A stretch of DNA of 64,000 nt. Source: Pseudomonas viridiflava. GTDB lineage: Bacteria > Pseudomonadota > Gammaproteobacteria > Pseudomonadales > Pseudomonadaceae. This document shows, in pieces, positions 54,421-63,420 of this stretch (the stretch's first letter is position 1; every line of letters begins with the position of its first letter). Location of the stretch: the NCBI RefSeq assembly GCF_900601905.1, contig NZ_UWFA01000137.1, positions 248,001 to 312,000 on the forward strand. Reading direction: 5' to 3'. Under the pieces are notes generated by a model. The model worked only from the letters and a program-made list of their open reading frames with translations, ran no database searches and was not told the origin of the DNA. The translations under genes were made by a program, and so were the position numbers.

Positions 54421-54830
54421 AAAAACAGCCGCCATTGTACCGACCGAAGCCTTACTTATCCACATGTAGGTTGAGAACAAAGCGGGACAGATCACGACTG
54501 TATAAGCAAAAAAAGCGACAGACGGCTTGTGCATAAGCCCTGTGGATAAGCGTACCTCAGCTCGTTGCATAAGTAGGTCCCGAAATCTGTGCATAACCCG
54601 TCTGTGGATAAAACGCCATTCCACGCACAGGTTTTCCGATAGCGCAGCACAGGCAGAGCACCGTTTCTCGACAGTGTTGTCATTCTCTGTACAGCTTGAA
54701 TTAAAAGGCTTTGACTGAGTTATCCACAGAAGGTTGGCTGCCTTGCTTTAATAAGCTCTATAAAGAAGCTTTAAATACTTCCCTTCTTTATTTCTATATC
54801 TACGTCAGTTCGCCATGAGAGGGTTCTGTC
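54421..54830. other. oriC, origin of replication upstream of dnaA
   Basis: Exact or N-variant DnaA boxes: TTATCCACA at 54456-54464 and 54720-54728 (plus), TGTGGATAA at 54541-54549 and 54603-54611, and TGTGCATAA at 54528-54536 and 54588-54596 (minus). An AT-rich unwinding candidate follows at about 54740-54802, and repeated GATAAG/CATAAG motifs occur. The 579-bp dnaA-rpmH gap holds this origin, the dnaA promoter zone and the rpmH promoter. Confidence 0.93.
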
Positions 54831-54885
54831 TCGACAGGTCTCAAAAGGGTCCGAACAAGTAAATGAAGGAAAAGCTGGTTGGAAA

Positions 54886-54914
54886 TTGACCTAGAGGCTT
54901 GCTTTCTCTAGAAT
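54886..54914 (+). promoter_or_regulatory. sigma-70 promoter of rpmH
   Basis: TTGACC (54886-54891), 17 bp, TAGAAT (54909-54914): a near-consensus promoter 60 bp ahead of rpmH. Confidence 0.75.
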
Positions 54915-54974
54915 CCCCGGTCTCTTAAAACGGGGGCCATTCCGGCCCGTTGTGGACGAACCAGGTAACACGCC

Positions 54975-55109
54975 ATGAAACGTACTTTCCAACCAAGCAC
55001 TATCAAACGCGCTCGCACTCACGGCTTCCGTGCTCGCATGGCCACCAAGAACGGCCGTGCCGTCCTGTCGCGTCGTCGCGCCAAAGGTCGTGCGCGTCTG
55101 GCAGTTTGA
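54975..55109 (+). CDS. rpmH: 50S ribosomal protein L34
   Basis: This 44-residue very basic protein, MKRTFQPSTIKRARTHGFRARMATKNGR to ARLAV, is full length. It is the first gene of the rpmH-rnpA-yidD-yidC-mnmE series that flanks oriC in many bacteria. AGGTAACACGCC precedes the start. Confidence 0.98.
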   Translation: MKRTFQPSTIKRARTHGFRARMATKNGRAVLSRRRAKGRARLAV

Positions 55110-55125
55110 TAATCCGGCACTGGAG

Positions 55126-55527
55126 GTGAGTCAGGACTTCAGTCGGGAAAAGCGTTTGCTTACCCCCCGGCATTTCAAGGCAGTCTTTGACTCCCCTACC
55201 GGCAAGGTTCCGGGGAAAAATCTCCTGCTCCTTGCGCGCAACAACGACCTTGATCATCCCCGCCTGGGGCTGGTTATCGGTAAAAAGAGCGTCAAACTCT
55301 CCGTTGAGCGCAACCGCTTGAAACGCCTGATGCGCGAATCATTTCGCCAACACCAAGATAATTTGGTCGGTTGGGATATCGTGATTGTCGCGCGTAAAGG
55401 TTTGGGTGACGTAGAAAACCCCGAATTGATTCAGCATTTCGGCAAGCTATGGAAACGTTTGGCACGCAGCCGGCCGGTTTCAGAAGCCAACGTCGAAACT
55501 GCAGGGGTAGATAGTACCGATGCGTAA
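55126..55527 (+). CDS. rnpA: ribonuclease P protein component
   Basis: This 133-residue basic protein contains FSREKRLLTPRHFKAVFDSP and the RNR motif KLSVERNRLKRLMRESFR, which binds the RNase P RNA. The start is ambiguous: the GTG at 55126 (VSQDF...) overlaps the apparent GGAGG, and no ATG is available; pseudomonad homologues begin with M(V)SQDFSREKR, which supports it. It follows rpmH by 16 bases and overlaps yidD by eight. Confidence 0.93.
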   Translation: MSQDFSREKRLLTPRHFKAVFDSPTGKVPGKNLLLLARNNDLDHPRLGLVIGKKSVKLSVERNRLKRLMRESFRQHQDNLVGWDIVIVARKGLGDVENPELIQHFGKLWKRLARSRPVSEANVETAGVDSTDA

Positions 55528-55765
55528 ACTGGCGCTCGTACCGATCCAGTTCTATCGCTATGCCATTAGCCCGCTGATGGCCAGCCACTGTCGTTTCTAC
55601 CCCAGTTGCTCCTGCTACGCGTATGAAGCCATTGAAAATCATGGCCTTCTACGCGGTGGCTGGCTGACCTTTCGTCGATTAGGTCGCTGTCATCCGTGGA
55701 ATCCCGGTGGTTATGACCCGGTTCCATCTATCCCTACCTCCCGTTCTTCTTCGATGGCCGAGTAA
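55520..55765 (+). CDS. yidD: membrane protein insertion efficiency factor YidD
   Basis: This 81-residue protein has the YidD signature IQFYRYAISPLMASHCRFYPSCSCYAYEAIENHGLLRGGWLTFRRLGRCHPWNPGGYDPVP with its four cysteines. It is thought to lie at the inner membrane and help YidC-dependent insertion. It overlaps rnpA by eight bases and is two bases from yidC, so the three are coupled. Confidence 0.96.
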   Translation: MRKLALVPIQFYRYAISPLMASHCRFYPSCSCYAYEAIENHGLLRGGWLTFRRLGRCHPWNPGGYDPVPSIPTSRSSSMAE

Positions 55766-61427: not shown

Positions 61428-61528
61428 TGGTTGTGAACCCTGAGGTAGTGGAATTCGCGTTTACCTGTAGGGCCGCGCCTGAATCAAAAAAGATAACCCC
61501 CTCGATCAGTTTATTTTTGCCAACAGGT

Positions 61529-62476
61529 TCAAGCCGTTCGCGTCACTGATATCCAGTATCGAGTGAAATAGCGGACCTGAATGGGCAGTGTGGCTTGAAG
61601 GTTGGCCATTACAGCGTCCATGGCATCAAGACGGAACGCGCCCGATACCCGCAGCTTTGCCGCCTGTTCATCGCAGTGCATGACGCCTTGACGGTAGCGC
61701 GCCAGCTCACGAATTACAGTACCTAACGGTTCATCGAGCACAATGAACTGGCCGTCCACCCATGCCGAAGCACTCTGTGGATAACTACGGTTCGGGCTGA
61801 TTGTACGGGCATCAAAGTCAGCACCTTGTCCCGCGCCCACCAGGCGTCTTTCGCCGTCGGGTGCCGAGGGCTGGATGCTCACTTGATCTTCCAGGACGCC
61901 GACGCGTGTGGTGTTTTCCAGTTGGCGAACCGAGAAGCGAGTACCCAGAGCCTGGATTCGTCCTTGCTGCGTCTCGACATAGAAAGGCCGCGCATCCCGT
62001 TGCCTGGTGGTGCGTATCAGGATTTCCCCGTCGCGCAGGCGGATCAGGCGCTGGTGGCTGTCGAATAGCACATCTATTGCAGTGTCTGTATTGAGCTCGA
62101 TCTGGCTGCCATCGGCCAATTCGACATGCTGACGCCGACCCACCGGGGTTCGATAGTCCGCCAGTACGTTTTTCAGCGCGGTATGTTGCTGAACATTCCA
62201 CCCCAGGTATCCCGTTCCGGCCACTGCCAGCAGCAATTTCAGGACTTGCCGACGTTGCTGAGGCCGAGACAATGCTCGTCGAGTCAGATGCTGAGGCATG
62301 CTCCCCAGGCTCTGCTGCAGTTGTTCCATTTGTTGCCAGGCAAGCCGGTGCGCCGGATCACTTTCAACCCACTGGCGCCAGGCTGCCTGTTCAGCCTGAG
62401 TCGGAACTTCACTCTGAAACTGCACAAACCAACTGGCAGCCTTCTCGAAGACCTGGCGGTCCGGGGGAGCACTCAT
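61529..62476 (-). CDS. FecR-family anti-sigma/transmembrane sensor
   Basis: This 315-residue protein has the N-terminal DUF4880/anti-sigma region (ASWFVQFQSEVPTQAEQAAWRQWVESDPAHRLAWQQMEQL), a single membrane segment (VLKLLLAVAGTGYLGW) and the periplasmic FecR domain (YRTPVGRRQHVELADGSQIELNTDTAIDV). It relays the signal from the receptor's STN domain to the sigma factor. The ATG at 62476 overlaps the sigma stop by four bases (ATGA), which confirms it. Its end ...RYFTRYWISVTRTA is usual for the family. Confidence 0.93.
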   Translation of the reverse strand: MSAPPDRQVFEKAASWFVQFQSEVPTQAEQAAWRQWVESDPAHRLAWQQMEQLQQSLGSMPQHLTRRALSRPQQRRQVLKLLLAVAGTGYLGWNVQQHTALKNVLADYRTPVGRRQHVELADGSQIELNTDTAIDVLFDSHQRLIRLRDGEILIRTTRQRDARPFYVETQQGRIQALGTRFSVRQLENTTRVGVLEDQVSIQPSAPDGERRLVGAGQGADFDARTISPNRSYPQSASAWVDGQFIVLDEPLGTVIRELARYRQGVMHCDEQAAKLRVSGAFRLDAMDAVMANLQATLPIQVRYFTRYWISVTRTA

Positions 62477-62982
62477 GACGCCTGTGCCATGAGTACCGAA
62501 CATTCAGTGAAGGCCCTGATCATGTGTTTCTTCACAGTGGTCAGCGAGACCCTCAACTCCAGCGCGATCTGCTGATAAGTCATGCCTTCGATCTGCGACA
62601 GCATGAAAATCCGCTTGGTGCGCGGCCCTAGATCATCCAGCGCCTTATCCACAGCCCACAGGGTCTCGATGATCAAAGCCTTGTCTTCTTCACTAATCAC
62701 CATGTCTTGCGGCCTTGCAGCCACCGCCTGTTCATAAGCGCGTTCGATTGCCCTGCGCCGATAGCGATCAATGACAAGCCCCCTGGCAACGGTGGCCAGA
62801 TAATCACGAGGCTCGCGGATCTGCGTTGCGTTGGCTGCGCCGAGGATTCGCACGAACGTGTCATGAGCTACATCGGCAGCATCGCAGGCATTGGACAGTC
62901 GCTTGCCGAGCCAGCCATACAACCACGAGTGATGCTGCTCATAGATGCGCTGTACAACAGCCCTATGGGAGTGAGATGACAT
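62473..62982 (-). CDS. FecI-type ECF sigma factor
   Basis: This 169-residue ECF sigma factor has region 2 (VVQRIYEQHHSWLYGWLGKRLSNACDAADVAHDTFVRIL) and region 4 (LGPRTKRIFMLSQIEGMTYQQIALELRVSLTTVKKHMIRAF). It would direct RNA polymerase to the promoter of the receptor gene when the siderophore binds. It is coupled to the FecR gene and preceded by a Fur-box-like sequence. Confidence 0.94.
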   Translation of the reverse strand: MSSHSHRAVVQRIYEQHHSWLYGWLGKRLSNACDAADVAHDTFVRILGAANATQIREPRDYLATVARGLVIDRYRRRAIERAYEQAVAARPQDMVISEEDKALIIETLWAVDKALDDLGPRTKRIFMLSQIEGMTYQQIALELRVSLTTVKKHMIRAFTECSVLMAQAS

Positions 62983-63001
62983 GGGAAAATGGCTTGTGAA
63001 T

Positions 63002-63020
63002 GATAATGGCTATTATTAGC
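63002..63020. promoter_or_regulatory. Fur box upstream of the sigma factor gene
   Basis: GATAATGGCTATTATTAGC matches the 19-bp Fur consensus at 14 of 19 positions. It ends 20 bases before the sigma start, where a repressor would cover the promoter, as expected for an iron-starvation sigma factor. Confidence 0.7.
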
Positions 63021-63125
63021 TTTTGTTTCGGGAACGCACAATAGCTGCTTTGACAGCGGCCCTTCGTCGCATTTGTGTCGAGCGCCCGGTCTCGTTCCGC
63101 GATTTTCCTCCTCATTGTGTAAAAA

Positions 63126-63420
63126 AAGCTCGCCTAAGCTCTGTGGATAAGGCCGCCTCAGCCCTATTGATAAGTAGGCCCGAAAGCTGCGCATAACCCC
63201 CCCTGTGGACAAGTGCACGTTTAATCCACAGGCTTATGACGGTTATCCCAACCCCTCTCGGGCACATGACCACAGACTTTCAAATCTCTGTACACACTGA
63301 ATTACATGGCCTATAGAGATCTATCCACAGAAATCAGGCTCAGTATAAATAGCATTTAAAATAAGGTTTTATAAATCTTCTTTCTTTTTAATTTCTATAT
63401 CTGAGAGTTTTCCACAGCTG
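63126..63420. other. second oriC-like segment, upstream of mnmG
   Basis: This stretch aligns with 54525-54802 at a constant offset of 8601. Shared blocks: TGTGGATAAG at 63142, GCATAACCC at 63191, CTCTGTACA at 63286, TATCCACAGAA at 63322 and TTTCTATATCT at 63392. Only the box at 63142-63150 is exact; the others have one mismatch (63188 TGCGCATAA, 63204 TGTGGACAA, 63222 TAATCCACA, 63321 CTATCCACA, 63408 TTTTCCACA). The AT-rich part lies at 63340-63400. The gap 62983-63516 otherwise holds only the Fur box. Confidence 0.85.

Follow-up and report, generated by a model that had tools for sequence, protein, structure and literature searches.

How an essential and normally single replication origin can change its place on a chromosome is a question raised in concrete form by a locus of Pseudomonas viridiflava (GCF_900601905.1, contig NZ_UWFA01000137.1, positions 248,001-312,000 of the forward strand; this whole stretch of 64,000 nucleotides is referred to as the window). 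An initial annotation of the window had claimed that the oriC core in the gap between dnaA and rpmH (the D copy) is duplicated 8.6 kb away, 5' of mnmG (the M copy), and had proposed an ancestral duplication with subsequent decay, or a specialised second origin. The questions that arise are whether the two are copies of one element, which of them serves as origin, and what keeps the other. Comparisons within the window, across Pseudomonas and in the wider order and class show the two to be homologous, point to D as the main origin in Pseudomonas and give no sign of decay in M.

Two copies of one origin cassette

All landmarks of the duplication that were checked sit at the coordinates and offsets which had been claimed for them. 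Local alignment of the two intergenic regions (scoring +1/-1, gap -4/-1) pairs positions 54531-54801 with 63132-63402 at an offset of 8601 and a score of 60, against scores of 15 or less in 500 dinucleotide shuffles. The two copies are as follows:

54531..54801, + strand: D copy, origin cassette in the dnaA-rpmH gap, probably the oriC in use (alignment to M, 81-copy alignment and skew test)
63132..63402, + strand: M copy, origin cassette 5' of mnmG, likely a reserve origin or DnaA-binding control site (alignment to D and 86-copy alignment)

Without gaps, at the same offset, 154/291 positions are identical over 54525-54815. The identity goes beyond what AT-rich, box-containing DNA would share, as 90/181 columns (50 %) outside any box-like 9-mer (two or fewer mismatches, plus one base on each side) are identical, and off-register shifts of 3 to 60 bases give a mean non-box identity of 27 % and a maximum of 34 %. 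Searching the 5.7 Mb genome of the strain itself with a profile of the D copy, using Infernal's stricter filters under which 15/857 first-look candidates were scored, returned two sites only at E < 0.01 (6.7e-61 and 4.4e-31), the next being at 0.018. These comparisons show that D and M are related copies of one origin-type sequence, homologous in register.

Conservation of both copies in Pseudomonas

The region was taken from 58 other genomes of the genus, and named relatives were added later. The M query matches 59/59 genus genomes (own included), with some matches spanning only the promoter and mnmG start, so that the second copy is present in relatives as well. When the alignment was repeated in the other Pseudomonas genomes, as the initial annotation had proposed, D and M aligned with scores of 18-76 in 55/59, and the reversed-sequence control gave scores of 9-15. 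In one further genome (L054) D is cut by the contig end (score 15 vs 12 for the control), and 3/59 have no D site in the fetched stretch.

Conservation was quantified over sets of 81 D and 86 M copies, drawn from the genus and near relatives, with six loci lacking a usable D site; these sets include L106, L112 and L114, which are not named Pseudomonas, and the aberrant L113 was left out of the M counts. Mean information is 1.07 bits per base in D and 1.14 in M. Three successive blocks have lengths of 77, 83 and 40 bp, which recur in 78, 78 and 81 of the 81 D copies and in 81, 85 and 86 of the 86 M copies. The D and M consensus sequences are identical in register at 157/291 positions (next best shift 34 %), the correlation between their conservation profiles peaks at shift 0 (0.53; next 0.37), and the same base occurs in 77 of the 88 columns that are conserved in both. 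The left flank of M, which consists of different DNA in different genomes, carries 0.36 bits per base vs 1.18 in the M core. This wide-flank contrast is informative only left of M, because the other flanks are promoter or coding DNA. The gaps immediately beside D carry 0.66-0.68 bits on the left and 0.08-0.35 on the right. As the distance from the end of M to mnmG is tight (97-288 bp, median 125; n=82) while the D-M offset ranges between 4282 and 9267 bp (n=78), M is bound to mnmG, and not to D.

DnaA boxes and AT-rich parts

Six good boxes at D, and one exact box with one-mismatch versions at M, had been described in the initial annotation. The D intergenic region holds six boxes with one mismatch or none, four of them exact, with the exact box at 54456 lying outside the duplicated core, and the M region holds five (one exact, four with one mismatch). 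A cluster of DnaA boxes beside an AT-rich part at a fixed distance, as expected of a Pseudomonas-type oriC, is found in both copies:

54456..54464, + strand: exact DnaA box outside the duplicated core (box scan)
54541..54549, - strand: D box b1, exact; exact in 78/81 D copies (box scan and copy counts)
54588..54596, - strand: D box b3, one mismatch; among D copies exact in 12/81, one mismatch in 56/81
54603..54611, - strand: D box b4, exact; exact in 62/81 D copies
54720..54728, + strand: D box b6, adjoining the AT-rich part; exact in 67/81 D copies
54735..54802, + strand: AT-rich part of D, predicted unwinding element, 69 % AT
63142..63150, - strand: M box b1, exact; among M copies one mismatch in 75/86, exact in 6/86
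63204..63212, - strand: M box b4, one mismatch; exact in 51/86 M copies
63222..63230, + strand: M box b5; one mismatch in 77/86 M copies
63321..63329, + strand: M box b6, adjoining the AT-rich part; one mismatch in 59/86 M copies, exact in 27/86
63336..63403, + strand: AT-rich part of M, predicted unwinding element, 78 % AT
63408..63416, + strand: box b7, found in M only, between the AT-rich part and mnmG; one mismatch in 62/86 M copies, exact in 3/86

Box b5 is exact in 2/81 and has one mismatch in 10/81 of the D copies. The exact b1 of M in the window is atypical, since M copies are mainly exact at b4. The best conserved 30-base bin of M (63347-63376; 1.52 bits per base) lies in its AT-rich part. 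The weak boxes are thus a kept feature of M, conserved as weak, and their mismatches to the consensus would be expected to lower the affinity for DnaA. The decay that the initial annotation had proposed for the mnmG copy is therefore rejected: M is conserved to the same extent as D (1.14 vs 1.07 bits), its spacings are near-invariant in three of four blocks and its weak boxes are conserved as weak, so that M shows no sign of decay.

The cassette outside the genus

Sequence-only profiles were constructed from 36 D copies (R1) and 33 M copies (R2); the nhmmer profiles left out L112, L114 and L106, and L117 was never included. The site table comprises matches at E<=1e-3 only, with the strain's own genome excluded from the slot counts. 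R1 matched 71/115 other genomes in the order sample. The best match lies 5' of mnmG in 34, in the dnaA-rpmH gap in 29, in a fused rpmH-mnmG gap in three and elsewhere in five, and it is oriented toward mnmG in 34/34 and toward rpmH in 29/29 cases. R2 gave a similar division among 62 order genomes (M slot 34, D slot 21, fused 3, other 4). Both slots are occupied in six order genomes, namely G028, G076, G140, G164 (window's family), G121 and G064, and G083 and G132 are possible further cases. In the class sample, whose 113 other genomes include one of the order, R1 matched 27; 18 matches are found 1.6-2.0 kb upstream of rpmH with the opposite orientation, two at mnmG, one at rpmH and six elsewhere. 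The searches of the order and class samples used stricter filters and thereby lose weak matches.

Whole-genome profile searches gave a match at 1e-3 or better in 13/17 named genomes. Halopseudomonas xiamenensis, Stutzerimonas stutzeri and Pseudomonas jinjuensis each have two matches below 1e-20. The best matches in Pseudidiomarina tainanensis, Neptunomonas antarctica, Gilvimarinus gilvus and Halomonas urmiana range from 3.7e-12 to 5.1e-9, and in the fetched loci of these four they sit 5' of mnmG.

Cassettes outside the window's family were also compared to 30 shuffled versions of each, in which boxes with two or fewer mismatches were fixed and the remainder was shuffled. All 30 shuffles were beaten with the D profile by 28/38 M-slot and 9/10 D-slot cassettes, and with the M profile by 28/38 and 7/10, respectively.

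Several variant arrangements were observed. The site in the 18 class genomes (e.g. G223, G231 and G244) is probably the dnaA-dnaN gap, which would be a third slot of the cassette. In two Porticoccus loci (L122 and L161) and a Porticoccaceae metagenome-assembled genome (MAG; L153), rpmH lies only ~560-600 bp from mnmG, which looks like an inversion of the block from rpmH to mnmE between the origin slots. The cassette occupies a single rpmH-mnmG gap in L122, L161, G096, G126 and G153, of which G153 and L161 may be one genome; no clear profile match was found in the rpmH-mnmG gap of L153. Three genomes of family f31 (G089, G146 and G170) have the cassette ~1.1 kb upstream of rpmH, which would fit an insertion into the rpmH-dnaA gap.

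Gene layout and strand skew

In the window, gyrB, recF, dnaN and dnaA on the minus strand are followed by rpmH, yidC and mnmE on the plus strand. Minus-strand genes for a TonB receptor, a FecR protein and an ECF sigma factor then separate mnmE from mnmG:

52878..54395, - strand: dnaA (Pfam Bac_DnaA and Bac_DnaA_C)
54975..55109, + strand: rpmH (sequence, translation and matches in relatives)
55768..57450, + strand: yidC (Pfam YidC_periplas and 60KD_IMP)
57487..58899, + strand: mnmE (open frame from 57487; Pfam TrmE_N and MnmE_helical, scan from 57529)
58983..62982, - strand: TonB receptor, FecR and ECF sigma genes, after mnmE and before the M copy (Pfam)
63517..64000, + strand: start of mnmG (gidA), which continues past the window edge (Pfam GIDA)

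Among 78 genomes (own included), 52 have a D-M offset of 3.5-5.5 kb, 23 have one of 7.5-9.5 kb and three have one in between. The TonB receptor/FecR/ECF sigma block (58983-62982) sits between mnmE and the M copy. A structured RNA at D or M was considered and rejected, as no Rfam family reached its gathering score within 52500-64000.

The copy in use was read from the third-position GC skew (GC3) of yidC and mnmE minus that of mnmG, which is a statistic over genes with their own codon habits and does not measure replication itself. An origin at M would put yidC and mnmE on one side and mnmG on the other, so that their skews should differ; with an origin at D no such difference is expected. Mixed-slot and other-slot genomes were left out of the comparison of D and M genomes. 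The mean difference is -0.118 in 23 M-only genomes and -0.186 in five further M-only genomes (R2 only), compared to +0.082 in nine D-only genomes, +0.064 in 58 Pseudomonas genomes and +0.019 in four other two-slot genomes, of which G076 is negative. Its sign is negative in 27/28 M-only genomes and positive in 7/9 D-only and 51/58 Pseudomonas genomes. D-only and M-only genomes differ at p=4e-5, and family means are negative in 18/18 M-only and positive in 6/7 D-only cases (p=4e-4). Pseudomonas differs from the M-only genomes at p=7e-13, a value that is too small as the genomes are related, and compares to the D-only genomes at p=0.15. One D-only genome (G116) is an outlier at +0.46. A coarse scan of GC skew over 40000-64000, in 1-kb steps, had too much noise for a switch to be located. 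The skew between the slots supports the slot calls; it points to D, and not to M, as the principal origin of Pseudomonas, and suggests that the M-only lineages use M.

History of the duplication

The initial annotation's proposal of an ancestral duplication is supported. For a given D copy, the M of the same genome is no better a match than the M of the nearest relative (81 pairs, p=0.53); the own partner has a median rank of 30 of 81, and mean D/M scores are 35.1 within and 32.5 between genomes. Because D is not closer to its own M, the duplication is likely to have arisen before the radiation of the genus, with the copies evolving apart since. General gene conversion between D and M was not seen in this comparison. 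Two loci stand apart: L114 (Gammaproteobacteria MAG DTU037) and L059 have D/M scores of 79 and 76 vs expected scores of ~31 and ~48, suggesting local gene conversion or a younger duplication.

Beyond the genus, on an MnmG tree of 67 rows constructed by a quick method (without G096, and with G166 too short), the D/M label needs eight changes and is more clustered than when shuffled (0/500 as low). Since the labels are clustered and change eight times, repeated switching of slots is likely, with only one or two changes forced by well-supported branches. A single duplication at the root of the order, after which lineages would prefer the profile of their own slot, was not supported among 44 genomes matched by both profiles (21 and 23 genomes by slot; p=0.78). 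As the profiles show no slot preference, it is not clear that the window's family and the others share one duplication event.

What keeps the M copy

M is likely to be a retained low-affinity reserve origin or a DnaA control site. The explanation given an even chance of being correct is that D and M are copies of one cassette, with D likely the working oriC and M likely an old duplicate selected as a low-affinity reserve origin. Most replication in Pseudomonas would then start at D. Loading of DnaA onto M would require high DnaA-ATP, late or under stress, and M, which still has its own predicted unwinding part, may be able to unwind or otherwise bind DnaA to tune D. The origins of the group would have moved between the slots through two-copy states. 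A reserve origin is preferred over a pure DnaA sink mainly because the AT-rich part of M is strongly conserved. A wider account is put forward tentatively and is rather doubtful as a whole: origins in the class may move by being copied into a neighbouring dnaA-mnmG slot, both copies may persist under selection for long periods, lineages may then come to use either copy, and Pseudomonas may have been held in the two-origin state with M as a conditional low-affinity back-up.

Several observations weigh against the main explanation. Only 51/81 D and 54/86 M copies retain the length of the fourth block, which runs from the AT-rich part to the end. The right flank of M (promoter and mnmG start) carries 1.40 bits, and the mnmG promoter could thus explain part of the conservation of M, and the D flanks (coding and promoter DNA) carry 1.32 and 1.26 bits, which is no contrast to the core. 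Among the skew data, 30 syntenic genomes without a slot call average -0.104, like M, and the raw skews of dnaA, of yidC and mnmE, and of mnmG are alike negative on average in Pseudomonas, so that the argument rests on the skew difference alone. R1 has no match at 1e-3 in 44/115 order and 86/113 class genomes (own excluded), and R2 does not find both slots in G064, which leaves five two-slot genomes. D-slot and M-slot cassettes of other families do not favour the matching profile, the MnmG tree is poorly resolved, and the M profile finds no match in the oriC of Escherichia coli (-4.0 bits), to which the likeness of the D profile is itself weak. Finally, one of the two P. aeruginosa origins is reported to be dispensable in the laboratory (PMC4403523).

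Four other explanations were weighed. M may be a control site that binds DnaA, as a sink or as a DnaA-nucleotide switch (cf. datA/DARS of E. coli), and that tunes D and no longer opens, which is unlikely but the best placed of the four. Such a site agrees with boxes conserved as weak, with b5 and b7 being kept in M and mostly missing from D, with a position close enough to D for M to double soon after D fires, and with the skew naming D as the used origin. However, a pure sink would not need an AT-rich part that holds the best conserved bin of the copy, and M occupies the very slot that single-slot relatives appear to use as origin.

It is improbable that M is a DnaA-regulated mnmG promoter region that couples mnmG transcription to replication, with the origin shape left over. 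The tight distance to mnmG as against the loose distance to D, the conservation that runs on to the mnmG start and the placement of b7 on the mnmG side would all be explained, but the spacings of the distant blocks equal those of D and are near-invariant, which is beyond the needs of a promoter, and the AT-rich part is conserved together with the boxes.

Even less probable is a single bipartite origin in which D and M loop together as in Bacillus subtilis or Helicobacter pylori. Both box clusters are conserved near dnaA, and a 2025 E. coli paper suggests that one DnaA platform may serve both oriC and an initiation zone on the dnaA side (PMC12000880). Against this, the D-M offset is variable, each copy has its own AT-rich part, and 65/71 order genomes with an R1 match do not show both slots.

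Convergence of any working set of boxes and AT-rich part is the most improbable explanation, for although boxes supply part of the profile score, box-preserving shuffles average above zero and 10/38 M-slot cassettes fail to beat all their shuffles, half of the non-box bases in the window are identical in register, and 28/38 M-slot and 9/10 D-slot cassettes beat every such shuffle.

Comparison with known systems

A second autonomously replicating element of P. aeruginosa, which may or may not be the mnmG copy, is attributed to Yee and Smith (1990) and Jiang et al. (2006), and DnaA boxes near gidA of P. putida were reportedly noted in the era of these papers. The oriC of P. putida is located between rpmH and dnaA, and the D copy shares this place and the exact TTATCCACA boxes; a homologous copy at mnmG, present here, is not mentioned in the available text of that source (PMC3056050). 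The initial annotation's mention of two origins in P. aeruginosa is confirmed by the accessible portion of PMC4403523, which describes two autonomously replicating (ars) elements; only one of them is essential in the laboratory, and the second may be an origin that was functional in the past. M is likewise a second origin-like element, but the conservation, register and slot switching found for it are not described in that portion. The mnmG copy is equally not described in the sections seen of PMC3642087, PMC4285127, PMC5835720, PMC6727663, PMC4588119, PMC8203912, PMC7485682 and PMC6199493. Two candidate Pseudomonas origins, one of them dispensable, were thus known; the register homology, the genus-wide constraint on M and the slot switching read from skew were not found in the literature searched, part of it seen in excerpt and older subscription papers lying outside it.

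The bipartite origins of B. subtilis and H. pylori comprise two DnaA-box clusters near dnaA (PMC4285127), with an unwinding element in one cluster only. In contrast, D and M each have an AT-rich part and lie 4-9 kb apart, so that neither a single unwinding element nor a constrained distance is found. A likeness to the titration and reactivation sites datA and DARS is spoken against by the conserved AT-rich part of M.

In E. coli the only origin, oriC, lies between mnmG and mioC and is dense in GATC sites. M has in common with it the neighbouring gene, being directly upstream of mnmG, and an AT-rich part on the mnmG side. The GATC density is not shared, with no site in D and one in M. The D profile gives E. 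coli oriC 18.4 bits, a score that none of 300 box-preserving shuffles reaches (at most 11.9), and the M profile gives no sequence match. As the D profile sees E. coli oriC but the M profile does not, the link is tentative, and M as the closer match to it is not supported (-4.0 vs 18.4 bits).

A mirror image is offered by oriK-3850 of E. coli, a DnaA-dependent alternative initiation zone bordering dnaA, where the main origin is at mnmG and the hidden activity is near dnaA; it differs in being described in rnhA and rnhAB mutants and as UV-induced, and no conserved duplicate is described in the part of the paper available (PMC12000880). Set beside these systems, Pseudomonas offers a natural case of a second bacterial origin seemingly kept by selection though it is not the main start site. 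The conserved two-copy state, together with relatives that appear to use either single slot, provides a concrete duplicate-then-switch route for the relocation of an origin, and the old puzzle of why the oriC of E. coli lies beside mnmG and away from dnaA thereby becomes testable.

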